DNA from: Oscillospiraceae bacterium
GTDB taxonomy: Bacteria > Bacillota > Clostridia > Oscillospirales > Oscillospiraceae
Direction: 5' to 3'
Assembly: GCA_031260605.1 (NCBI GenBank)
Contig: JAISLF010000075.1
Location: 1-36,612, forward strand
DNA length: 36,612 nt
How positions within the stretch are numbered: the first letter of the stretch is position 1; the number at the start of each line of letters is the position of its first letter. Positions 5,036-22,495 of this stretch are shown one piece after another. Under the pieces are notes generated by a model. It saw only the letters and a list, made by a program, of their open reading frames with translations, was not told the DNA's origin and made no database searches. A program made the translations under genes and the position numbers.

Positions 5036-5112
5036 CCGGGCATGGCGCAGTTTGGTAGCGCGCCTGCTTTGGGAGCAGGAGGCCGTGGGTTCAAGTCCCG
5101 CTGCCCGGACCA
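5036..5112 (+). tRNA. tRNA-Pro (TGG), CCA encoded
   Basis: Acceptor CCGGGCA/TGCCCGG, anticodon arm CCTGC TTTGGGA GCAGG, T-loop GTTCAAGTC. Confidence 0.95.
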
Positions 5113-5203
5113 AGAATGTGCTGCTTTTGCGCAGGAAACAGCGAAAAATGACGAACCTTGAATTTTTTGCAGAAAAGCTTGCGCAAACGTCTGCACAATA
5201 TAC

Positions 5204-5279
5204 GACCTGTTAGCTCAGTTGGCAGAGCACCTGCCTTTTAAGCAGGGTGTCCGGAGTTCGAATCTCCGACAGGTCACCA
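5204..5279 (+). tRNA. tRNA-Lys (TTT), CCA encoded
   Basis: Acceptor GACCTGT/ACAGGTC, anticodon loop CTTTTAA, T-loop TTCGAATC. Confidence 0.95.
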
Positions 5280-5413
5280 TCGGACTTTACTTACATTCGC
5301 GGCAAGCGCGCGCAAAGCGGCGCATGGTAAAGTCCTGAAACCAAATTTACTTTTTGCATAGTTCTGCGCTTATTACACAGCAAAGCGCAGATATGAAAGC
5401 TGCAATATTTTGC

Positions 5414-5442
5414 TTGACAACATCAGGCAAATATGCTATAGT
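5414..5442 (+). promoter_or_regulatory. Sigma-A-type promoter for the downstream tRNA-Met/Glu/Ala genes
   Basis: TTGACA (5414-5419), 17-nt spacer, TATAGT (5437-5442). Confidence 0.75.
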
Positions 5443-5454
5443 AAGTTTCACTTT

Positions 5455-5531
5455 GGCGGTATAGCTCAGTTGGCTAGAGCACACGGTTCATACCCGTGGT
5501 GTCACCGGTTCGAGTCCAGTTTCCGCCACCA
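5455..5531 (+). tRNA. tRNA-Met (CAT), CCA encoded
   Basis: GGCGGTA acceptor, anticodon arm CACGG TTCATAC CCGTG. Confidence 0.93.
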
Positions 5532-5567
5532 ACCGCTGCCGGGGTCATAACAGACGCCGGCAACTGC

Positions 5568-5642
5568 GGCCCGTTGGTCAAGAGGTTAAGACACCGCCCT
5601 TTCACGGCAGTAACACGAGTTCGATTCTCGTACGGGTCACCA
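5568..5642 (+). tRNA. tRNA-Glu (TTC), CCA encoded
   Basis: GGCCCGT/ACGGGTC acceptor, anticodon loop CTTTCAC. Confidence 0.93.
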
Positions 5643-5694
5643 AGCTGCCTTTTGGCAGACGCAAAAATGAAAAAATTGCGATGCGGCAAAATGT

Positions 5695-5770
5695 GGGGGT
5701 ATAGCTCAGCTGGGAGAGCGCCTGAATGGCATTCAGGAGGTCAGCGGTTCGATCCCGCTTATCTCCACCA
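5695..5770 (+). tRNA. tRNA-Ala (GGC), CCA encoded
   Basis: GGGGGTA/TATCTCC acceptor, anticodon arm CCTGA ATGGCAT TCAGG. Confidence 0.93.
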
Positions 5771-6019: not shown

Positions 6020-9000
6020 CTATCTCACGTTCTCGGTAAACCGCCACAGCAGGGTTGCCACCTCTGCTCGTGTTGCGTTGCCCTCGGGGACAATTGTGGT
6101 CTCGGTCCTGCCGCTGAGCAGCCCAATCGCGTTTGCCCACTTGACCGCTGCAAGGGCGTAATCCGACACCGCCGCCGCGTCTGTGTACCTTGAAATGTCG
6201 GTTGTAGCCGACACATCGTAACCCTTGAGCTTGGCGTAGCGGTACAGAATCGCAACAATCTGCTCACGCGTAATGTTGTCGTTTGTGCCGAAAATGCCGT
6301 CGCCGTAGCCTGCCACGATTCCCTCGGCGTTTGCCCAAATCACGGCATTTGTGTACCACTGCTCCGCCGCAACGTCGCTAAAAGTGCTTGCTCCGGAAAC
6401 CCTCGGCTGACCCGCTATGCGGTACAGCACCGTTGCAAGCATTGCACGCGTCATCGGAGCGCCCGGCGCGAATTCTGTTGTCGAAACACCTGCCATCAGC
6501 CCGTTTTTCGACACATACTCAACAGCTCCGGCGAACCAGTCCTTTGCCTGAACGTCGGCAAAGGGGTTTGTCCAGGGCGTGTTGCCCTCCGGCGTGTCGT
6601 CCCCCGGCGGGGTTACTCCCGCCTTGTCCTTGAACACCGCCGAAATCACGACATTTGCGTTCGGCATAACGAAGCTTTTTGCCGCCGTAATGTCAACCGC
6701 CGAACCGCCGTTCGGCGTAAACGTCAGCTTGTCAAGCTCTTTTCCTGCAGGTGCGGTGACGTAGACCGTGACGGTTTCGTTCTTTTCAGCCTCATTTGCG
6801 GGGCTTGTGGTGACCGTTGCGCCCGCCTCAAGCGCCGGGTCGATTGCGATTATATAGGTAAGGCTTGCCGTGGGGTTCTCGTCGTAGTTCAGCACCTTCA
6901 GTATCGGGTAGCCGTCGTTGTACCCCGTGTCAGCCGAAAACGCGCTGCCGAGTGTTGTAACAAACGACAAATCCCGCATTTGCAGAGCTAATCTTGCTCC
7001 CGTACTGTTCACGCTTCCTGTCGCAAGGAAATACCCGCCGTCAACCGCGCTGCTCTGCAAATAGTACGTGTTTGTCACCGTGCCGCCGCCGCCGTTCCGC
7101 GTGCCGATTGCCATTGCGTAGCCGCTGCCCGCCTTGATTGTGCCTACGTTATAGCAGTTAATAATCGGTATCTCAACCGAGCCTGCGATTCCGCCTGTGA
7201 CTGATGCGGACGTATTCGTCACATCGCCCGCGTTGTAGCAGTTTCGGATTACTCCGCCGTTCCAAGCCGCGCCGACTATTCCGCCCGTACCCTTTTTGTC
7301 CGTTGCGCGGATTGTTGCGTAATTCGCGCAGTTCTCAATGATTCCGCCTGTCGAGCCGTCGAACGTTGCGCCTGAGGACGCCGTGGTTTTGCCGATTTTG
7401 CCGACTATTCCGCCGACGCTGCGGTTCGCGTAAATGTAGCCCGTGATTGCGAGGTTTTTCACACCCGGATTCACGGGTCGCAGCTCCACGGGGTCGTTAT
7501 CGTGCACGCCGAGCCGTCCGATTAGCCCCACAGACTGTCCGTCGCCGAAGGTAGCGCCGGCGTTTCTGCTGCAATAAATGTTGTAGATGAAGTGACCGCC
7601 GCCGTCCAGCGTTCCGCAGAACGATGAGCTGATTTTTGTATCAGAATTGCCCGGCGTCATGAGATACTGCCCGCCGATTGGCATATAATTCGGTCCGTAC
7701 CACGAGCCGTAGCTGTACACGCCGCCCATATCGATTGCGTTTTTCAGGTGGATTGTCTTGCCGTTAAAGTCAAACGCGCCGTAGTGGTAGGTTGCGGTTG
7801 AGAGGTTATTGCTGTCGTCCTTGTCGCCAATGTCTGACTTAACGTAGTCCGGGTTTGCGTTCCACTCCGCCGCCGAAACGGTTGAGCCGTCCCACAGATA
7901 CAGCGTTGTATTCTCGTTCACAAGCCCGTTGACCAGCGCCGCAAGCCCCGCAAGCTGAGCCGGACTGCCGATGTAAAAGTCTGTCGTTGCCGCATATGTT
8001 GACGGCGCGAACCACGTCAGGTCGATGGTTTCCCCGTCCCACGCCGCCAAGCAGTCCGCCGACGGCATCCTCGCCGTAAACGCGCCCCGTGTTTGCACAG
8101 CCGACTATTTTCAGCGTCGGCGCATTGTAAACGCCGTTTACAACACACATTATCCCGCCGACAGCCGAATATGCCGCTAAATTCCCTGAATTTGAGCAGT
8201 TTTCAATAAGAATTCGTGATTCGTCATAGGGCTGCGGCGCGCCGTTTACATGTGTTCCGTTGCTTGGCCAGTTTGTGTTGGGTCCGAGAATACCGCCTAC
8301 ACTGTATCCGGTGGTACACGTTACATCGCCGAAATTACGGCAGCCTTTAATCGAAATCGCACCTGAACCGCCGCCGACAACTCCGGCTCCAGTGCTCATC
8401 GTGGCGAGTATCGTCCCGTAGTTCACACAGTCCTGAACCACTAAAGACTTGCCGCTCAGCGTGGCATTTTGACCCGTTTGCAGCGTCCCGTAATATGTAC
8501 CGAGAATGCCTGCCACGAAGCCGTTTTTGCCCGTTTCCGTTACAGCCGCCTTGTTTGTGCAGTTGTATATAAATACGTTTCCTGAGGCATAGCCCGCAAT
8601 TCCGCCTATTGCTGAAATTCCGGTTAAATCTCCCTCGACGTTCAGGTTCTTTATTGTTGCGTCGAAAATGCAGCCGAATAGACCCGCGCCGTCCTCCGCC
8701 GGGTTAATTGTACTTGTGCGCTTCATGAACAGCCCTGAAATTGTGTGTCCCGCGCCGTCAAACGTGCCGGAGAACGGCTTGTCGTCGCTTGTACTTATCG
8801 TGCCGTTTATCGTTCCTATCGGATCCCACCCTTTTGGCTGCGGGCATACCGAGGCTGCGTCTATATCCGCAGTCAGCCGCACTACCTTGCCCGCAAACGT
8901 ATTGCCGCCGTTTACCGCGTTTGCAAAATCAGCAAGCTCCTGTGGCGTACCTATTTCCAAATACGCGGGCGCGGTGTTCGGCAGTACCGTTACATCGCAC

Positions 9001-9719
9001 GTTTTGGCAATGCCGCCGTCCTCCGCCGTTACCGTCAGCGTAGCCGTGCCCGGCTGAATTGCGTGAATTTGTCCCGCGCTGCCGACTGATACCACAAGGC
9101 TGTCTGAGCTTTCCCATGTATATTTTTTGTTTGAGGCGTTTGCCGGCGTGAACTGCGGGGTGTACGTCAGACTATCGCCCTCGGTCAGCGTCAGCGTGCT
9201 TTCGGGGATTGTAATATCCTCAACGTCCGCGTAGTATGACGTTATGTGCAGTGTTGCCGCAATATCTCCATCGGTTGTGTATACCGTAAGGTACATCTCA
9301 CCGGGGGACTGTGCGGACACACTGAACCGCGAAACCATGCGGTTATAGTCGGCGCTTACGGGATTGAAATAGCCTATATTCTGATAGCTGCCGATATTAT
9401 CGCCTGTTCTTACCGGATATGTCTGATTATACGCGTTTTCTGCCGGGTCTGTGCCGTAAACCGAGCGCACGGTTGCGTTTATCGGCTGAACGTCTGCCGT
9501 GATAAACACGTTTTGCCCGATTGCAAGGGAAAGCTCCGTTACGTCATACTCGTTTGGCAGGGTTTCCGCAGTATAATGTATTACATCAAACTTCACCCCT
9601 GTTGCCGCAACGTACTCCGGCTCTTCGTCCACGGCAAACGCCGCCGGCGGCAGCAGTGACAAAAGCATTAGCAGACAAAGCGCCGCCGCCGTTAATTTAC
9701 GCAGTAATTTTGCTGACAT
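6020..9719 (-). pseudogene. SLH-domain surface protein with Ig-like (BIG2-type) and GLUG-like repeats, disrupted by a frameshift near 8041-8060
   Basis: N-terminal signal peptide (MSAKLLRKLTAAALCLLMLLSLLPPAAFA) in one frame; downstream frame carries AWDGETIDLTWF..YIGSPAQLAGLAALVNG and three C-terminal SLH repeats. Confidence 0.85.
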
Positions 9720-9768
9720 ATGGAGTATCCTTATTTCCGAAAATAATAATCCGCTTGCCTGAACCCGC

Positions 9769-9805
9769 AAAAAAAGCGGGTATCCTCCGCATGAGAAGAA
9801 CCCGC
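9769..9805 (-). terminator. Intrinsic terminator in the 5' leader of the minus-strand SLH gene
   Basis: Minus strand GCGGGT-(18 nt)-ACCCGC followed by TTTTTTT, upstream of the ATG at 9719. Confidence 0.65.
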
Positions 9806-9825
9806 CGTGTTTTCAGCGTGGGTAT

Positions 9826-9948
9826 CTCCTCCTCAAAATGCGTGAGGGCTGTGCCTTTCGGCGGCAACCTGTGTGCAGACCGGGTAACAGCCCGCACAGG
9901 CGCTGCAATCCGTAGGAGTAACCCCCGTAGGCTTGCAGGCTTGGAGAA
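9826..9948 (-). ncRNA. Structured 5' leader RNA (candidate riboswitch-like element), copy 1
   Basis: CTCCAAGC...CACACAGGTTGCCGCCGAAAGGCACAGCCC-TCACGCATTTTGAGGAGGAG; closely matches copy 2 on the opposite strand; preceded by a promoter and followed by a terminator. Confidence 0.7.
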
Positions 9949-9969
9949 TATAGTATTCTATTATTATAT

Positions 9970-9997
9970 ATTTTACCACTGTATCTTTATTTGTCAA
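9970..9997 (-). promoter_or_regulatory. Promoter for leader RNA copy 1 / minus-strand SLH gene
   Basis: Minus strand TTGACA, 16-nt spacer, TAAAAT. Confidence 0.65.
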
Positions 9998-10049
9998 GAG
10001 GGGTAACCTTGCGCTTCTGCTGAAAAATTTTGCTGCCTCAAAAAAGTGC

Positions 10050-10078
10050 TTGACATTTCTTTCACGGTCGGCTAAACT
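10050..10078 (+). promoter_or_regulatory. Promoter for leader RNA copy 2 / plus-strand SLH gene
   Basis: TTGACA, 17-nt spacer, TAAACT. Confidence 0.6.
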
Positions 10079-10104
10079 ATAATAAAACATATACAATTAC
10101 ATAC

Positions 10105-10228
10105 CTCTCCAAGCTCTTAAACCTAAAGAACATCTGTTCCACGGTTTACGAGCCTGAACCTTGATGTTTGAGGTTCACACAGGCTGCCGCCTAAAGGCGC
10201 TGCCCGTCACGCATTTGAGAAGGAGAGC
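10105..10228 (+). ncRNA. Structured 5' leader RNA (candidate riboswitch-like element), copy 2
   Basis: CTCCAAGC...CACACAGGCTGCCGCCTAAAGGCGCTGCCCGTCACGCATTTGAGAAGGAG; stems AAACC/GGTTT, GAACA/TGTTC, AGCCTGAACC/GGTTCACACAGGCT and GCC/GGC-type hairpin. Confidence 0.7.
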
Positions 10229-10266
10229 ACCGCTGCCGCTTTAATTTTTTGTTGTTAAAGGGTAAT

Positions 10267-10301
10267 AAGGGGTGTTCTTCTTTTAGAAGAACACCCCTTT
10301 T
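10267..10301 (+). terminator. Intrinsic terminator between leader RNA copy 2 and the SLH gene
   Basis: AAGGGGTGTTCTTC-TTTTA-GAAGAACACCCCTT then TTT. Confidence 0.8.
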
Positions 10302-10393
10302 CTGTACAGAAAAGGCGAAATTTTTCGGTAATATCCTGCAAGGGTTTTTACATAAATAAAACAAACAAAAAATATTAGGAGAAAAAATTGTAC

Positions 10394-12666
10394 ATGAAGA
10401 AGTTCAGACAGAAGGCTCTCAGCGTTGCGCTCAGCATTGCTATGCTGCTCTCGCTTGTGCCGATATTCGGCATTTCGGCTGCCGCGACCGATGGCACATG
10501 GGATGGCACCGGCACGGAGGACGACCCGTATATCATCGCGGACTTAGCCGATTTCACCAAGCTGCGCGACGATGTTAACGCAACCGCAACTATCAGTTAT
10601 GCCGATACGTATTTCCGGCTGGACACGGACCTTTCCCTCACAAGCTTTGCCGTTGTCGGCAACGCGGCAACAAAGACCTTTAACGGCATTTCGACGGAAA
10701 CGGGCATACAATAACAATTGCCTCCGGCTCGGGAGTGTTTGGTTACATTAAAAGCGCGACGATAAAGAACGTCACCACCGCCGGAACTGTCGGCACCGGG
10801 ATAGGCGGCACCGGTGCGCTTGTTCAGTACATAGACAACCGCGGACCTGCGGATGCGGCAGTTCCCGCGGTAATCGAAAACTGCGTGAATTACGCCAATG
10901 TGTCCGGCACCGGGACAAACGGCACCGGCGGACTGATCGGACGGATATATACCTCGGTGAACCCCGGACCGGTATACATAACAGATTGCGTGAACTACGG
11001 CACAATCAGTCTTTCCGGCTCTACCCCAACCAACGCCGGCGGAATCGCCGGTATTGCGTGGTACGGAGTGATTACCTTCTCAGGCTGCGTGAATAACGGA
11101 AACGTATCGTCAACGATCAATCCCTCAAACTATCTTGGCGGTATCTCAGGGAATGTTAACAGTGGCGCGAAGGTTGTTTTTGAATATTGCGGAAACAACG
11201 GAAACATTAGCTGCACCACCCTTAACGGTAACGGCAACGGCGGCGTAGGCGGCATAACCGGAGATATGTGGGGCTATGCCCTGCTCTTCAAGGGTTGCTA
11301 CAACACCGGCACGATTACTCAAGGTCCCCAAGGCAACGGCACTAAGTACTACTACATCGGCGGAATTGCTCCTTCGGGACGGGTTGTCGAAGACTGCTAC
11401 AACACAGGCGCGATTGTTGTCGCCGGCACCGGTAACAATGTCGCGGCAGGCGGTTTGATCGGCGCGCCATTTAGTCAAGGCACGCCCAAAACGCTTTCTA
11501 TCACAAACAGCTATTCCGCAATGGACGGCTTTACCGGTACGCCGACCGCCACGACTTCATACCACCCGCTGGCTGCCCGCTGGGGCATAAGCGGCTCTGA
11601 AGAGCCTACATTTGATAACGCGTATTACCTGCTCACGGCGGGAGTCGCCATCACTATGCCGGCAATCGACACATCAGCCTATGAAGTTGCCGACAAGGAC
11701 GCTCTTATCGCGGCGGTTCTCGGCATTACTGACACGCCGTTTGCGCCTGACATCACGCCCAACATCAACAACGGCTACCCGATTTTGAAGTCGCAGCTTC
11801 CCGCGCCGACAATCACAATCGACACAGACCCGGCAAACGTAACGGTAACAGAGGGCGAAATCACGGAAAGCCTGACGGTTGCGGCAAGCTCAGACCTCGG
11901 CTTTGAGCTGACATATCAGTGGTATGACGAGGACGGCGCAATTTCGGGCGCAACAGACGCGACGCTTGCAATCCCCACAGGTCTTGCAGTCGGCACGTAT
12001 GACTATTATGTTGAGGTTTCCTCAACAACAGGCTTTAAGTCAAGCACAGAAACCTCTGCAACGGCAACTGTAACAGTTGAGGAAAAGGTAACGATACCTG
12101 AAGCAAAGCCGTGGGTAAATCCGTTCACGGATGTTTCAGAGGACGATTGGTTCTACAGCGCGGTTGAGTTTGCAAGCAAGAACAAATTAGTCTCCGGCAC
12201 AAGCGACACGACGTTCTCGCCGAATGTTGAGCTGACACGCGGTATGCTCGTAACAATCCTGCACAGCCTCGAAGGCAAACCTGCGGCAACTGCGGAGAAA
12301 TTCACCGATGTTGCCGAGGACGCATACTACGCAAAAGCAGTAGACTGGGCGCGGGCAAACAAAATCGTCGCAGGCGTCACGGATACCGAGTTTGCGCCGA
12401 ACGCGTCAATCACGCGCGAGCAGCTCGCGACAATCCTGTACAGCTACGCCAAGTACAAGGGCTACGACATTGCTGCGGCAGTGAGCTTTGCGGCGTACGG
12501 CGACGCAGGCGAAGTGTCTGATTACGCGAAAACCGCGATTTCGTGGGCAGTGGCGCAGGGCTTTATCAAGGGTCGCTCTGAAACCGCGATTGAGCCGCAA
12601 GGTACGGCGACGCGCGCCGAGGTAGTAACAATGCTGAAGCGTCTGATTGAAAAATACAGCGCATAA
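10394..12666 (+). pseudogene. SLH-domain surface protein with GLUG-like repeats, disrupted by a 1-nt frameshift near 10689-10692
   Basis: Signal peptide MKKFRQKALSVALSIAMLLSLVPIFGISAAA; restoring one T (ATTTCGAC to ATTTTCGAC) gives FNGIFDGNGHTITIASGSGVFGYIKSATIKN; three SLH repeats at the C-terminus. Confidence 0.85.
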
Positions 12667-13566: not shown

Positions 13567-14298
13567 TCACGCCTCACGGTCTTGCTCGGTTCTGCGTTTT
13601 TTTCGCGCGGCACTAAGTATTGCACCTAATTTATCGTCTTTTAGTTCGCTTATATTATCCTTTTCAACGCTCAGCAGAATTTCCCTTGCTTGTTTTTCAC
13701 TTTTGCGAATCTCACTGTACACCCGTTCATAGTCGCCGCTTTCGAAGCAGTCTTCAATGAATTGAGCGGCAGCATCGGGAATTTTCGCGGATTCACCATA
13801 GAGCACAGCTATGGCTTTATCTACAGCATCACGCGCAATCGGAGTTCCGTTTCTCTGATGTTCTAAAAGAATTCCCGCAACATCTGAAAGGTCGTGCTTG
13901 TATTGTCTGCCGCTCATCAGTTTCATTGCAATGAGATATTCGGCAGCAATGGTCCGCACTGTCAGCACTTTTGAAAATGACTTGTAGTACATGGACACCT
14001 CGGACAATTTGCCGGAGTATGACGTGGTTCTTGTAAAGTCCGTGTTCAGCCATCCATTCGGAAGCTTGAGGCTGTCGCCAACGATATTAACAGCCTCTTT
14101 CATAACAGAGGACGCGTGAATTATTGCGTCAATGTCGTATGTCGTTTCTCGAAAACCGTAATTGGCAAGCACCGCCGCGCCGCCGATTAGTATAATTTCC
14201 GCAGGCATTGCCGCTCCGCCGCGCTTGCGGTATTCTTTGCCAAGCTCGGTTAAGTATCGGTCGAGATTTTCTTTCGTAAATTCCTTTTCAGCAGACAT
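13567..14298 (-). CDS. Nucleotidyltransferase-fold protein (DUF6036/AbiEii-like), probable toxin-like partner
   Basis: EIILIGGAAVLANYGFRETTYDIDAII; overlaps the XRE gene by 11 nt. Confidence 0.75.
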   Translation of the reverse strand: MSAEKEFTKENLDRYLTELGKEYRKRGGAAMPAEIILIGGAAVLANYGFRETTYDIDAIIHASSVMKEAVNIVGDSLKLPNGWLNTDFTRTTSYSGKLSEVSMYYKSFSKVLTVRTIAAEYLIAMKLMSGRQYKHDLSDVAGILLEHQRNGTPIARDAVDKAIAVLYGESAKIPDAAAQFIEDCFESGDYERVYSEIRKSEKQAREILLSVEKDNISELKDDKLGAILSAARKKRRTEQDREA

Positions 14299-14857
14299 TT
14301 CTCACCTCGCTTTCAACGATATTGCACCGCCGAAATTCGGGTATCGCTCGTTCAAAGCTGTCTTGCTTATATTTCTCATTTCCGCTTACCGCGCATATTG
14401 CAATTATGCTTGCGGGATATACCGGCTCTTGCAGCTTTTCCGCACGAATATCCGCGTAATCGCGGCACAGTGCCAAGCCGTTTTCGCGGCTTAAATAGTC
14501 TGTCATTGCAAGCAGATACAAGCTCTCGGCATACCACTTTTTCTCGTACAGCTCGCGGATTTCTCCGGATTCCAGAGTAGCAATGATGAAGTCCAAATCG
14601 CCCATATCGTGAACCCTGTGGCACACCGTACTTTTGAACGCCTCAAAGCTCATTCGATACTCCATTTTATCCGCAACAAGCTCTTCCATTGTCACATCAA
14701 GCGTTTTTGCGAGTTTATACAGCGTAGCGGCAGAGCAGTTTTCCAAACTCGTCTTGCCCAAGCAAATATCGCTGACAGTAGCGTAAGGAATAGTGCTTTG
14801 CTTTGCCAAGCTGTACTTCGTCAGTTTCTTTTCTTTTAGAATTGTGTTTATATTCAT
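14288..14857 (-). CDS. XRE-family HTH regulator with C-terminal extension, probable antitoxin/autoregulator
   Basis: MNINTILKEKKLTKYSLAKQSTIPYATVSDICLGKTSLENCSAATLYKLAKTLDVTMEEL. Confidence 0.8.
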   Translation of the reverse strand: MNINTILKEKKLTKYSLAKQSTIPYATVSDICLGKTSLENCSAATLYKLAKTLDVTMEELVADKMEYRMSFEAFKSTVCHRVHDMGDLDFIIATLESGEIRELYEKKWYAESLYLLAMTDYLSRENGLALCRDYADIRAEKLQEPVYPASIIAICAVSGNEKYKQDSFERAIPEFRRCNIVESEVRNVC

Positions 14858-15791: not shown

Positions 15792-18700
15792 ATGGCTGAA
15801 AAACTTAAAACAACAGAAACGTCGGACCCAAATGAACCAGCGAACACATCTAAACAACCCCTCAATTTTCAAAAACTCACACCAACTGATGAAGTAGAGC
15901 TTGGTACTTACCTCAATGCATTAGATTTTGTTTTTGAAAATGATGACTTGACAAATGTTGCAATTTCAGGTGCATACGGCGCAGGCAAAAGCAGCATTTT
16001 AGAGTCATATAAAGCGCGACGATCAAATAAGCGGTTTATTCATATTTCGCTTGCTCATTTTGAAACAACCGAGAGCAAAGAAAAGCAACAGAGCAAAACA
16101 ACGCCACCCGAAATTAAGCAGGCAGTACTTGAGGGTAAAATACTAAACCAGCTTATTCATCAAATTTCACAGAAAAATATACCACAAACAAATTTTCGCG
16201 TAAAGCGTGAAGCAAAGCCGCACAAAATAATATCTTGGGCAATAGGAGCTGTTCTATTTGCATTGCTTCTTCTGCATACCATCTTTTTTGAAACCTGGCA
16301 GACCTATGTAGAAAATCTAACACACTTTTGGCTGCGACAGCTATTGAGTCGGACAACCAATAGTAGTGTTTTGCTTGTAACAGGACTATTACTTGCCGTT
16401 GCAATTGGCTTGTGTGTGTTTCATATTATCAAAGCACAAATCAACCGAAGTATATTAAAGAAAATAAGTGCAGACAAACTTGAAATTGAAATATTCAAGG
16501 ACAGTGACGATTCTTTTTTTGATAAATATCTCAATGAAGTCCTCTACCTTTTTGAAAAGTGCGATGCCGACGTTATTGTGTTTGAGGATTTAGATAGGTA
16601 CGATGTCAACCATATATTTGAACGATTGCGTGAAATCAATAGCTTGATAAACGCTAAGCGCAAAAAAGGGCGTATTAAAGAGCAAAAGCCGCCGCTGCGT
16701 TTTCTATACCTGCTTCGTGATGATATATTTACCTCAAAGGACAGGACAAAATTCTTTGATTTTATTATTCCTATCGTTCCAATAATTGATGGTTCAAACT
16801 CGTACAACAAATTTATTGAGCTATCAAACAACACCCAAGCTAAGATTTTTGACGATGCCTTTTTGCGCGGACTATCGCTTTACATAGACGATATGCGTAT
16901 ACTGAAGAACATTTACAACGAATATCTGATTTACGAAAGCCGCGTTAATAAGATTGAATTGAATCACGATAAGCTGCTTGCGATTATTGTGTACAAAAAC
17001 CTATTCCCGCAAGATTTCAACGATTTGCAATTGAGGAAAGGGTTTGTTTTTGCACTGTTTGATGAAAACAGAGTTAATAATATTAGAGCTAATAAACTTA
17101 CTGCGCTTAATGAAGACTTAAAAAAAGCACGCGACGCATACCCAAAAAACAGTAAGATAGAGGACAAAATAGGTTCAGATGCTGAAATGGTTGCGATTGA
17201 ATCCGAACTTGGAGAAGCTAGATTTGCCACACTTAAAGAGTTAATAAATCCAGGAAACATTGACGAAATTTTTGCAGTTACAAGCACAAATGCTGTCGGC
17301 AAACGATTTGACTACACCGCCGTTCGCAGCAATAAGTATTTTGACTTGCTTAAATACCTAATCCGCGACGGATATATCGACGAGTCGTACACGGATTACA
17401 TGACTTACTTTTACCCAAATAGCCTTACTACGAGAGATAAAATATTTCTGCGCAGCGTAACTGACCAAAAGCCTAAAGAGTCAACCTATAAGTTGGACAA
17501 CCCTGAAATGGTATTTGCATGGTTAAGCGAAAGGGATTTTGAGCAACCAGCGGTGGTAAATAATGACTTGCTTTTTTTCTTGTTAAAGAGCTGCGCAAAA
17601 TTTCAAAGAGTAATAGAAGACAGTGGCAAAGATGAAGCTGTTAGCATGGTTTATAATAGTTATGAACCATACTTTGAAGAAGACAATTCAATCGAAATTA
17701 AGCGCTTGGTAAATATGCTTTACCTTTTTCCAAAAACTGATATGGATAATTTGTTTGATTCAGTGAAAGATGTTCAATTAAACTATCTTGTTAACTGTCT
17801 AAATGCGTTTTATGCACCAAAATTATCGCACACTAATTCAGAGACTTTTGTATTTAGAACTCTGATTGCCACGGATGTAGATGATATGTTAACCGGCAAA
17901 CAAGACAAACCTATATTTCTTGAGTCTCACCTGAAACAATACATTTCTGCACACAGCTCATTAATCTCTCGTAAAGCGTTTGACAACCTTGAAAACCTAT
18001 ATGGTACAGGAGTAAAGGATCCGTCGAAAGAAGTTGTTGGCATTGCCCAACTACCTGATAAGTTTGTAAAAAAGCTAATCCGTATTGGCGTCCGTTTCAC
18101 AGATCTTGACCCTGAGCAAGCGCGACAGTCTATTTTTGAGTTAGTTTACTTACACAACCTATACGAACTCAACTTTGGCAACATTTCGAGAATACTTAAA
18201 TCCGAATACGGCATAACAAGTGATGAGGATATTGCACACAAAAGCTATACGCTTATCCGCTCAAAGCCCAAAAGTTCGCTTGCGATGTATGTTAAGGACA
18301 ATATTGATGGATACATTGCTGTGGTACTTGATACGTACGACGCTGAAATTGATGACGAACGAACTGATGCACTCGCTATACTTAATAATGAAAATGTGTC
18401 CGAGGAACATAAGGCGGAATACATTAGAGTTTACAAACGTATTTGGTATCGCTTAACAGACATAACTGACAAATCACTTTGGCAGTTGCTTATTGAAAAC
18501 AAGCGCGTGTCACATAATGTCCAAAACACACTTGACTATTTCAGCTATTGCGGATACGAACTAACATACGAATTACGAAGATTCATAGTTGACAGTAATA
18601 TCGATTCGCAAGACTATACGACCATTCGCAAAACATATGACGACGAAGCTTTGCGGGAGCTCTTCAACGCCGTTATTAAGTGTAACGACTTGGATAATGC

Positions 18701-19523
18701 ATACTATAGCCAAATCCTCAAATCCCTCGATTTCTCTTATTCCAATAGCTTTGACATTGAGGATATCTCGGACGATAAAGTTCTGATTTTAGTAGATATT
18801 GGAGTTATTCGAATGGCAACCGACTCGCTGCTATTTATGCGTGAGCATTACCCCAACGCCGTTTTGCCATACATAACGAAAAATATTGAAAAATATATTA
18901 CCGAAATTATTGAAGGCGATAGCTTTGAGTTTGACCTAAAAGAGGTGCAGTGCGTTGTTGCAAGCAATGAACCCGGCGTAACCGACAAACGCAAGCAACG
19001 TCTGCTTCACGCATTTTGCAAGCCAATAACTGCCCAAAACAAGGCTCATTCAGACACAATTAAGGAGTATATTTTGCTGCACAACCTTGACACCGGCGAT
19101 CTGCAGCACTTTATTTTAGTCTATTCACGCGAAAAGGCAAATACAAAATCTGCAATTGAGAGAATCACGGTTAGTAACATTGACGCTATTTTTGAAAATA
19201 GCTATACTATTGATAAAGCCTTGGTAGATAAACTTTTGTCGTGCAGTGACATACCTGCCGACACCAAGCAAAAACTGTTTGCACTATTATTGCCGAATTT
19301 TGACATAGCGCAGTGCACACAGTATTTGCAACAGCTAAAGTTGAACGATTTGCTTAGCTTATTTGACGGAAAACTCCCGCTTATTCACGATAGCGACATT
19401 AACGAAAGAATACTTAACATTTTCAAAACCAACAACTGGATAAGCAGCTTTGCGCTTGATAAGAAATCGACCGATTGTTTCCGTCCATATATACGAAAAT
19501 CAGCCACAAGAGACTGGGCTTAG
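15792..19523 (+). CDS. YobI-like (KAP-related) P-loop NTPase with internal TM pair, 1243 aa; candidate defence protein
   Basis: Walker A GAYGAGKSS, Walker B VIVFEDLDRYD, RFLYLLRDDIF, two TM segments between them; long helical C-terminal region. Confidence 0.75.
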   Translation: MAEKLKTTETSDPNEPANTSKQPLNFQKLTPTDEVELGTYLNALDFVFENDDLTNVAISGAYGAGKSSILESYKARRSNKRFIHISLAHFETTESKEKQQSKTTPPEIKQAVLEGKILNQLIHQISQKNIPQTNFRVKREAKPHKIISWAIGAVLFALLLLHTIFFETWQTYVENLTHFWLRQLLSRTTNSSVLLVTGLLLAVAIGLCVFHIIKAQINRSILKKISADKLEIEIFKDSDDSFFDKYLNEVLYLFEKCDADVIVFEDLDRYDVNHIFERLREINSLINAKRKKGRIKEQKPPLRFLYLLRDDIFTSKDRTKFFDFIIPIVPIIDGSNSYNKFIELSNNTQAKIFDDAFLRGLSLYIDDMRILKNIYNEYLIYESRVNKIELNHDKLLAIIVYKNLFPQDFNDLQLRKGFVFALFDENRVNNIRANKLTALNEDLKKARDAYPKNSKIEDKIGSDAEMVAIESELGEARFATLKELINPGNIDEIFAVTSTNAVGKRFDYTAVRSNKYFDLLKYLIRDGYIDESYTDYMTYFYPNSLTTRDKIFLRSVTDQKPKESTYKLDNPEMVFAWLSERDFEQPAVVNNDLLFFLLKSCAKFQRVIEDSGKDEAVSMVYNSYEPYFEEDNSIEIKRLVNMLYLFPKTDMDNLFDSVKDVQLNYLVNCLNAFYAPKLSHTNSETFVFRTLIATDVDDMLTGKQDKPIFLESHLKQYISAHSSLISRKAFDNLENLYGTGVKDPSKEVVGIAQLPDKFVKKLIRIGVRFTDLDPEQARQSIFELVYLHNLYELNFGNISRILKSEYGITSDEDIAHKSYTLIRSKPKSSLAMYVKDNIDGYIAVVLDTYDAEIDDERTDALAILNNENVSEEHKAEYIRVYKRIWYRLTDITDKSLWQLLIENKRVSHNVQNTLDYFSYCGYELTYELRRFIVDSNIDSQDYTTIRKTYDDEALRELFNAVIKCNDLDNAYYSQILKSLDFSYSNSFDIEDISDDKVLILVDIGVIRMATDSLLFMREHYPNAVLPYITKNIEKYITEIIEGDSFEFDLKEVQCVVASNEPGVTDKRKQRLLHAFCKPITAQNKAHSDTIKEYILLHNLDTGDLQHFILVYSREKANTKSAIERITVSNIDAIFENSYTIDKALVDKLLSCSDIPADTKQKLFALLLPNFDIAQCTQYLQQLKLNDLLSLFDGKLPLIHDSDINERILNIFKTNNWISSFALDKKSTDCFRPYIRKSATRDWA

Positions 19524-19566: not shown

Positions 19567-20853
19567 ATGAAAAACAAAAGCAAGTTTTCATCCTTCCGAT
19601 TGCTATTATGTTCTTGTCTGGCAATAGCAATTATCATATGCCCACAAGCGTCTTGTGCCGTGAGCGGCGGCACTGTTAGTTACTTTGGTGAAGCAGTTGT
19701 CTGCAAAAAGGACAATGACTTTAAGCCAAATATAAGCATTCCGTCAATTCCTACGGATAATCCGCACTTCGCGTAGAGTTTGGGTCAGTTCTACGTCAAA
19801 GGCTATTCGGATAAATCCGGTACAGAGGATAATGTGTTTCTCAAGACCGTCGGCGACCAAATCGAATTTGGGTTTAGATTAACGCAAGATATTGATGTGT
19901 TGAACGGCAATTTAAATATAAAGATCGTCAATGACAATATGAGTATTGAAGACCCGCCGCTTATAAAGACAAACATTGGACGCGGTACGCTTGTTATAGT
20001 CAAGACGGATTATCAGGGAAACAAAACGCAAAGTGAATACACAAACTTTTTAGAGGCAAAAAGTGTTGATGCAGACACAAAAGTTGGAATTTTTGAGGAA
20101 GGTGACTATCGCGTAGTCCTTGTATACGAGATTCAGAAAGTAAGCGGACTGTTTGGCTTTTTTAAGAATTATTACAACTACCGTATGGAATCAAGCTTCA
20201 AAATCAGAAACGCAAACAGTATGCTCTTCATCCAAGACACAAAAACCGGCAGTGAGTTAGCAAATGAGGACTTTACTGAAAGCGGCTTCAAAATTGATTT
20301 AGCGCAATCTCATTATCTGCACGTTAGCGCAAAAAAAGAAGTGTTAAATGATACGGGTGATGGGATTGTAGAGGATATTCGTTTCAACACGCTTGTGAGT
20401 GATGGAACTGTCTTTACTGCTCCGGGAAAATATACGCTTACCGTCAGTAATGATTATAATGATATGAAAACTCCAAAGGTCATCTACATCGGAGTGGACT
20501 ACAAGATAGTTAAAGCAAGTGTTGTAAACAATACCAGTGTACTTGCTATTAAGCAAGCCCTTGACGACGGAGCAACACTGTCTGATAACTGGAATATTAT
20601 CAATGCACCTGAGTCTTTGCCCACACGGTCCCCGGAGCTACCGACTTTACCGGCACAAACTTCACCTGAAAGTTTACCGGACAATTCGGTTACTCCCGAT
20701 ATAACTCCTGAAATTCCTCTCGATAATGGCGAACAAAATGCGATAATACTTTGGAGTGGCATCGGAACCGCGATATTAATAATTGTGCTTGGTGTAGGTG
20801 CTTTTGTCTATGCTCACATGAAGAAAAAACATCACGAGGAGGATAAACTGTGA
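19567..20853 (+). pseudogene. Signal-peptide, single-TM surface protein interrupted by one in-frame TAG (19774-19776)
   Basis: 19567-19776 and 19780-20853 are in the same frame (..TDNPHFA*SLGQFYVKGYSD..); C-terminal TM + KKKHHEEDKL. Confidence 0.7.
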
Positions 20854-22103
20854 AACGACTGATAGCATTAACCCTATGCCTTGCGTTGCTGCTCGCAAGC
20901 TGTGAACCGGGGACAATGGCACCCACAGCACCCGATGGACAAACAGCCGGGTTACCTGAAGCCCCAAACAATTCGGCTGATACCGCACCGACAGAAGCTG
21001 CAAATGAGCCGGTAATTCCAACTCCGGAAGACAACTTTCCGGGACTTAACGCCGCCGTCTTGCTGCGGTCTGTTGAGGACAGCGTCTACGCAAATATCAT
21101 TGCAGAACTCGACAGCGATTTGTACTTTGTTGAAAACGTAAGCGCGATATACATTTCGCAGGAATACATAGACGAATTGTCATATAACTCACAGGCAAAT
21201 ATCTACTTCGGCTATACTCTTTCTGAACTTGAAGAGCAATTTCAGGGCGCAAAATTTGTATTCACGCTCAGAGATGATGGTCAAACTGCTGTGAAAGAAT
21301 TTGAAGAGTATGACGACACTTACGACAGAGTAATCAGAAATGTCGCAATTGGAACAGGCGTAATATTATTGTGCGTGACGATTTCGGTTGTTACCAGTGG
21401 TGGTGCTGCGCCTGCGATATGTGCCATCTTTGCGGCGTCGGCAAAAACAGCAACCATAGCTGCTATTTCCGGTGGTCTGTTCAGCGGAGTTACCGCGGGC
21501 ATTGTTACGGGTATTCAGACAAAAGACTTCAACGATTCATTAAAAGCCGCCGCGCTTGCGGGCAGCGAAGCATTCAAGTGGGGTGCAATAACAGGGGCAA
21601 TCTCCGGCGGAGCGACAGAAGCCATTGCGCTTAAAGGCGCGACGCTCAATGGGCTTACGATGAATCAAGCTGCTGTTATCCAACATGAATCGAAACTTCC
21701 ATTGTAGCTGATTAAAAACTTCAAGTCAGTTGATGAATATAACATTTATAAGAGTGCAAATTTAGTGCCAAAAACTTTTAATGGTAAGCTATCTCTAATC
21801 CGTCAAGTTGACCTTAATCGCATCGACGAAGCTGGACGCGCAAATGCACAGAGGATATTAGAAGGATTGTCCCCACTTGACGACATGGGAATAGCGTATG
21901 AATTACATCACATTGGGCAAAAAACGGATTCTCCTCTTGCAATATTAACAAAAGCTGAACATATGTCTCCTGGCAATAACACGATATTTCATAACACATC
22001 AATTGAGACTGGAGTACACGCAGAAATTAGTACTGCTGCTTGGCAAAAAGAAGTTAAAGAGTTTTGGAATGCTTATCTTAACCTATCACAAGAAGGATTC
22101 TGA
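20850..22103 (+). pseudogene. Lipoprotein polymorphic toxin with C-terminal LHH (HNH/EndoVII-like) nuclease, interrupted by one in-frame TAG (21705-21707)
   Basis: Lipobox LLLASC; Gly-rich hydrophobic region; SKLPL*LIKNFKSVDEYNIYK then IAYELHHIGQKTDSPLAILTKAEHMSPGNNTIFH in the same frame; start overlaps the previous stop (GTGA). Confidence 0.75.
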
Positions 22104-22105
22104 TT

Positions 22106-22495
22106 ATGTCCGAATTTGTTGCGCTGTTGCACTCAAAACCAAATTTTCGAGCAATAATTGGTGCGTCCAACGAGCAAATAAATGAAGCTGAAAACGCGCT
22201 GGAGTTGCAGTTTTCTGATGAGTACCACGAATATTTAGCAGCCTTTGGCGTTGCCTCGGTTTATGGACACGAATTCACCGGGATTTGCGCATTTCCGCGC
22301 TTGAATGTTGTTAACGTCACCTCGGAAGCAAGAGCACTTGAGGGAAATATTCCTGCGGACTGGTATGTTATCGAGCAAGCGCATATAGACGGCATTGTAA
22401 TTTGGCAGTCAAGCGCGGGCGAGGTATACCAAACAATGCCGAATGCACTGCCGACAAAACTATGCGATTCGCTATACGAATATCTTGAACTGTAG
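22106..22495 (+). CDS. SMI1/KNR4 (SUKH) family immunity protein
   Basis: IGASNEQINEAENALELQFSDEYHEYLAAFGVASVYGHEFTGI; starts 2 nt after the toxin stop. Confidence 0.8.
   Translation: MSEFVALLHSKPNFRAIIGASNEQINEAENALELQFSDEYHEYLAAFGVASVYGHEFTGICAFPRLNVVNVTSEARALEGNIPADWYVIEQAHIDGIVIWQSSAGEVYQTMPNALPTKLCDSLYEYLEL

Follow-up and report, generated by a model that had tools for sequence, protein, structure and literature searches.

A divergent pair of Moco riboswitches upstream of SLH surface-protein genes in an Oscillospiraceae bacterium and a candidate surface-protein regulon in its genus

The analyzed stretch of DNA (36,612 nt, hereafter the window) represents the whole contig C44 of the 74%-complete draft genome (1.9 Mb in 103 contigs) of an Oscillospiraceae bacterium. 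The intergenic region 9720-10393 is occupied by two divergent promoter–leader–terminator units, each directed towards a gene for an SLH-domain surface protein:

6020-9719, minus strand: surface-protein gene; signal peptide, Big_2 (E 1e-13), GLUG/InlB-type repeats, three C-terminal SLH domains (E 4.5e-31)
9769-9806, minus strand: intrinsic terminator of the minus leader; hairpin 9806-9776 of about -18 kcal/mol, then a U-run
9810-9958, minus strand: Moco riboswitch aptamer (RF01055), P3-containing; cmscan 38.0 bits; upstream of the minus SLH gene
9970-9997, minus strand: sigma-70-like promoter of the minus leader; TTGACA-16-TAAAAT, 11/12 matches, spacer 16
10050-10078, plus strand: sigma-70-like promoter of the plus leader; TTGACA-17-TAAACT, 10/12 matches, spacer 17
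10095-10241, plus strand: Moco riboswitch aptamer (RF01055), P3-containing; cmscan 58.8 bits; upstream of the plus SLH gene
10267-10303, plus strand: intrinsic terminator of the plus leader; hairpin 10267-10299 of about -24 kcal/mol, then a U-run
10394-12666, plus strand: surface-protein gene; signal peptide, Ig-like region, three C-terminal SLH domains (SLH E 1e-29)

The first-pass annotation of this DNA had noticed a divergent pair of related structured leaders at this place. The pair is present, with bounds set by the covariance model at 10095-10241 (plus) and 9958-9810 (minus). After screening of the window against Rfam 15 with cmscan, both leaders were identified as RF01055 (Molybdenum/Tungsten riboswitch aptamer, Moco RNA motif), with scores of 58.8 and 38.0 bits for the plus and minus leader, respectively. 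The gathering score of this family is 36, and both matches cover the full model (positions 1-135 of 135). Hence, the assignment of both leaders to the Moco riboswitch class is near certain, although the minus aptamer exceeds the gathering score by only 2 bits, which weighs against the interpretation preferred below. The implied new class of RNA had to be abandoned because both leaders score above this threshold; a strong match to a family with a known ligand had been named beforehand as the outcome that would end the novelty, and so it did for the RNA class. The earlier exclusion of the S-box, cobalamin, TPP, GEMM, M-box, ydaO and T-box families was borne out, as none of them scored above its gathering score in the window, where RF01055 and tRNAs were the only Rfam matches. 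The Moco riboswitch was not among the families so excluded. The ligand of the window leaders is presumed to be Moco, a compound whose instability rules out straightforward binding assays in vitro.

The two leaders share a conserved 3' half, and the arms of P2 and P3 differ in sequence yet pair in both of them, just as the first-pass annotation had described. P2 is formed by AAACC/GGTTT in the plus leader and CTGCAA/TTGCAG in the minus leader, and P3 by GAACCT/AGGTTC and GTGC/GCAC, respectively. The multi-stem layout of RF01055 (P1, P2, P3, P4, P5) was found in both leaders in the cmscan alignment and is supported by a covariation analysis. For the latter, 22 homologous RF01055 leaders, taken from the genus plus one additional genome, were aligned and analyzed with RNAalifold; 19 of the 22 predicted pairs had at least one sequence changed on both sides with the pairing kept. 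Homologues with covarying stems, also in front of SLH or surface-protein genes, had been anticipated and were found. The P3 helix is present in both window leaders according to the cmscan alignment. P3-containing RNAs accompany Moco genes, and P3-less ones accompany tungsten-cofactor genes (Regulski et al. 2008, PMC2408646). With P3 in both leaders, the tungsten-cofactor type is not favoured.

A promoter-like pair of hexamers precedes either aptamer at a distance of 12-17 nt, in agreement with the earlier claim of a separate promoter for each leader; three sigma-70-like sites were found in the region vs 1.0 expected in shuffles. The terminators claimed between each leader and its ORF were also located, with a hairpin and a U-run in both cases. 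The 3' arm of the terminator resembles the 3' strand of P1 in both leaders, which gives the terminator 5' arm two alternative pairing partners. The duplex between the P1 3' strand and the terminator 5' arm reached -20.7 kcal/mol in the plus leader (0/1000 shuffles as low) and -17.9 kcal/mol in the minus leader (10/1000 shuffles as low). When the transcripts were folded up to the terminator loop, the antiterminator pairing was formed in both leaders and was more favourable than the fold with P1 forced, by 4.9 kcal/mol in the plus leader and by 3.9 kcal/mol in the minus leader. The minimum-energy fold of the complete plus leader holds P1 and the terminator together. That of the complete minus leader favours a long alternative pairing over P1 and the terminator, which makes the prediction for the minus switch weaker. 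Altogether, the folding revealed in both leaders an expression platform in which the terminator alternates with P1, and the transcription-attenuating layout upstream of SLH genes that had been suggested for this locus is judged to be right.

In the absence of the ligand, the terminator 5' arm and the P1 3' strand would form an antiterminator and the SLH gene would be transcribed; binding of Moco would stabilise P1, the terminator would form and transcription would stop. The anatomy of the leaders gives good support to the prediction that both act as transcriptional OFF switches, with the surface genes expressed at low Moco. The OFF direction corresponds to that demonstrated for E. coli moaA (Regulski et al. 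2008, PMC2408646).

Both window proteins contain three stretches matching PF00395 (SLH; E 4.5e-31 and 1e-29), and their signal peptides were recognized by eye. The second half of the minus protein shows 39% identity over about 500 aa to a 1623-aa protein of the same genome and 38% identity over about 500 aa to a protein encoded directly after a Moco riboswitch in a related genome (G002). In this assembly, both ORFs are frameshifted by one base, the plus gene near 10694 within a short T run (six-frame reading) and the minus gene near 8045 (reading frames), on which the first-pass annotation was silent. The frameshifts may reflect an assembly error, pseudogene formation or decay, or phase variation. 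They were counted against the preferred interpretation, as were the absence of any Mo- or pterin-related domain in either window protein in the domain search and the state of the genome, a draft of 74% completeness that is rich in SLH domains (121 matches).

Besides the window pair, two further RF01055 matches were detected in the same genome, one before modA (L002) and the other (L003) before a third SLH protein, so that three of the four riboswitches precede SLH proteins. The L003 riboswitch is followed by genes for a 555-aa SLH protein, a Big_2 membrane protein, a MotA/TolQ/ExbB-family protein and the 1623-aa SLH+GLUG protein; genes for a FecCD permease, an ATPase and a binding protein lie just upstream. 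No cobalamin riboswitch was found in the window's genome as a second controller of the surface genes. In the genus, 26 RF01055 matches (one of them below the cut-off) were present in 11 of the 12 genomes. One riboswitch lies at a contig end with an unreadable first gene and was excluded; among the remaining 25, the first gene encodes a secreted or SLH surface protein in 14 cases and belongs to molybdate transport in 11, being modA, modB or a methyltransferase gene with a FecCD-family transporter behind it. The targets include a fusion of an SLH protein with ModA (G003; TIGR01256, 155.6 bits at a cut-off of 62.5). Orthologous pairs are preserved across species for an SLH protein (G000/G008) and for a GLUG protein (G000/G002, 58% identity over 886 aa). 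The G007 riboswitch is followed by an operon for a lipoprotein whose match to PF00174 stays below threshold (E 1.3e-4, 22.1 bits vs the curated cut-off of 24), together with an ExbB-like protein, a metallophosphatase and SLH proteins, among them one that has a Shr-like haemoprotein-interacting domain. Molybdenum enzymes are widespread in the genus (PF00384 in 12/12 genomes, MoeA in 10/12), and tungsten-type AOR occurs in 4/12.

Five genomes of the same family but of other genera (G112, G244, G155, G086 and G229) also have surface proteins behind Moco riboswitches, and a sixth (G162) probably does. Elsewhere in the class, no SLH or GLUG first genes were seen among the readable genes behind the 30 best-scoring Moco RNAs, a sample inspected by eye and biased to high scores; these first genes resembled tungstate/molybdate transport, MoaA, redox enzymes and small secreted lipoproteins. 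A plasmid search with the window intergenic region gave no match. The open-access literature, to which the search was confined, contained no report linking a Moco riboswitch to S-layer, SLH or surface proteins. The RNA is of a known class, and the new part is the set of its target genes; within the open-access literature, both the surface-protein regulon and the surface-only aptamer subclade described below appear to be unreported.

In the aptamer tree, a clade with a support of 100/99 unites the window pair with three leaders, those of a GLUG protein in G002, the SLH-ModA protein in G003 and a cohesin-domain protein in G005. All five aptamers, from four species, precede surface genes. The clade has CUCCAAG where the family reads CUCCGAGC and most other leaders have CCGAGC, and its 3' half is shifted. 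The other surface-gene leaders fall outside this clade. The surface and transport labels in the tree were more clustered than in shuffles, requiring 3 changes vs 6.7.

Neither Pfam nor NCBIfam gave a name to the repeat domain present in the 555-aa SLH protein and in its relatives. AlphaFold modelling of this SLH-linked domain from a homologue (pLDDT 85.4, pTM 0.83) gave as the best PDB match PruR, the pterin-binding protein of V. cholerae (7kp2; probability 1.00, E 5e-3, TM 0.46/0.54), followed by the sulfite dehydrogenase SorT. The model is suggestive of a PruR/sulfite-oxidase-like pterin-binding fold. Proteins of the PruR type are similar to sulfite oxidases except that the Mo-ligating cysteine is missing (PMC13259868), and judging from the alignment the SLH-linked domains also seem to have no cysteine at the expected place. 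For a second putative sulfite-oxidase-like operon protein (A4), the AlphaFold model had a pLDDT of 39.6, too low for use. In S. wolfei, two Moco RNAs are followed by sulfite-oxidase-like genes (Regulski et al. 2008, PMC2408646), which is a possible precedent.

The genomic link of these riboswitches to molybdenum, namely modA under RF01055 in the same genome (L002) and SLH-ModA in a relative, stands beside window targets devoid of any Mo-related domain. We consider it likely, with a probability of roughly 0.78, that the window pair are P3-containing Moco riboswitches acting as OFF switches and recruited to a cell-surface programme for the acquisition of Mo/W or pterin. The expanded Moco regulon of the genus and family would comprise molybdate transporters and secreted wall-anchored proteins, the latter including SLH-ModA, SLH proteins with PruR/sulfite-oxidase-like domains and GLUG-repeat SLH proteins, together with ExbB-like and FecCD transporter operons. 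Under Moco shortage, the surface system would be displayed to capture molybdate/tungstate or molybdopterin. We infer acquisition as the most likely purpose through guilt by association, because the companions are ModA, PruR-like, FecCD and ExbB-like proteins and because the surface genes would be derepressed at low Moco. A smaller but real chance is given to the idea that the same Moco riboswitches control adhesins or S-layer components that have nothing to do with Mo uptake, with Moco as a proxy for the metabolic or redox state and low Moco switching adhesion or the cell coat. The adhesin-like GLUG, Big_2 and InlB-type repeats of the window proteins, which lack a metal-related domain, and the large M26N/FIVAR/GLUG proteins after other Moco riboswitches speak for it. 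So does a known case of pterin-controlled attachment, the PruR–DcpA signalling of proteobacteria (PMC13259868). However, the same riboswitches drive SLH-ModA and adjoin FecCD transporters and PruR-like proteins, which fits acquisition better.

The aptamer of the surface clade might also be a specificity variant that senses the tungsten cofactor, a molybdopterin precursor or another pterin instead of Moco, as hinted by the grouping of the window pair with three surface aptamers of other species, the CUCCAAG replacement, the shifted 3' half and the low score (38 bits) of the minus member. We regard this as unlikely, since the scores remain above the family threshold, P3 is retained, which argues against the tungsten type, and other surface genes have aptamers outside the clade. 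Chance proximity of Moco riboswitches to abundant SLH genes, or decay of riboswitch copies, would be in line with 121 SLH-domain matches in a 1.9-Mb draft and with the two frameshifted ORFs; it is made very improbable by the recurrence of the same-strand leader–terminator–ORF order in 14 of the 25 genus cases, by the orthologous SLH and GLUG pairs conserved between species and by stems that covary instead of decaying. Practically no weight is left to the new, unassigned class of leader RNA proposed at first, whose sole support was the lack of a match in the first-pass annotation and which is contradicted by the RF01055 matches, above the gathering score and along the complete model in both leaders.

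In comparison with the described Moco riboswitches (Regulski et al. 2008, PMC2408646), the window leaders share the full-model sequence and structure, the P3 stem, the OFF layout with intrinsic terminators and the presence of modA under the same RNA in their genome. They differ in their targets, SLH surface proteins instead of the published Mo transport, Moco synthesis and Moco-using enzymes, and in forming part of a sequence subclade whose members all precede surface genes. The regulon would resemble the Isd/Shr surface haem acquisition of Gram-positive bacteria in combining wall-anchored ligand-capturing proteins with a FecCD-family ABC transporter, switched on at nutrient scarcity, and one of its SLH proteins carries the Shr-like domain mentioned above. 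Unlike Isd/Shr, it relies on SLH and not sortase anchoring, on a Moco riboswitch and not Fur, and on predicted PruR-like and ModA domains and not NEAT. With PruR (PDB 7kp2; PMC13259868), the regulon SLH repeat domain shares the predicted fold, the secretion and, from the alignment, the apparent lack of a Mo-ligating cysteine, but it is fused to SLH anchors in Clostridia, stands under a Moco riboswitch and is unpaired with DcpA; the window's own two proteins have no PruR-like domain.

An apparently orphan RNA has thus been placed in a known class, and the class in turn points to a function for surface proteins without a known role, turning these proteins of an uncultured gut bacterium into candidates for the capture of molybdenum, tungsten or pterin. 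If the acquisition programme is confirmed, monoderm gut bacteria would be able to obtain Mo or its cofactor by an Isd-like route, and the scope of the Moco regulon would extend far beyond transport, synthesis and enzymes. A bolder and rather doubtful proposal is that the window pair represents a surface-specific subclass of Moco riboswitches with a ligand preference shifted to a molybdopterin form or another pterin, governing a wall-anchored Mo/pterin scavenging machine of SLH-ModA, SLH-PruR-like proteins, an ExbB-like motor and a FecCD transporter, the molybdenum counterpart of Isd/Shr haem uptake in monoderms. The window leaders offer natural aptamer variants for studying how Moco riboswitches discriminate between related cofactors.

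Several minor observations were made at other Moco-riboswitch loci. A second divergent pair is located at 6179-7326 of L061 (G003:C84), with a methyltransferase–FecCD–ATPase–binding-protein operon as the target on one side and a 2339-aa M26N/GLUG/FIVAR surface protein on the other. In three genomes (L065, L141, L140), genes for a MoxR-type ATPase and a DUF58-like protein, named by eye, follow a surface or transporter operon under a Moco riboswitch. At two loci elsewhere in the class (L164, L176), the genes after Moco riboswitches encode small secreted lipoproteins that by eye resemble sulfite-oxidase-fold domains.

The remaining part of the window contains five clustered tRNA genes (Pro, Lys, Met, Glu, Ala) at 5036-5770 (plus). 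At 13567-14857 (minus), a gene for an HTH protein overlaps one for a DUF6036 nucleotidyltransferase, which looks like a nucleotidyltransferase-type toxin–antitoxin pair. A 1243-aa YobI-like P-loop NTPase (Pfam E 2.4e-121) is encoded at 15792-19523 (plus), with its first third also matching the PADLOC model Tmn (E 7.5e-71); this locus is a candidate for anti-phage defence, and two unnamed ORFs lie downstream of the NTPase gene at 19780-21707. Finally, a small protein with an LHH-type nuclease domain, followed by a SUKH (SMI1/KNR4) protein, is encoded at 21765-22495 (plus), an arrangement that looks like a polymorphic toxin–immunity pair.
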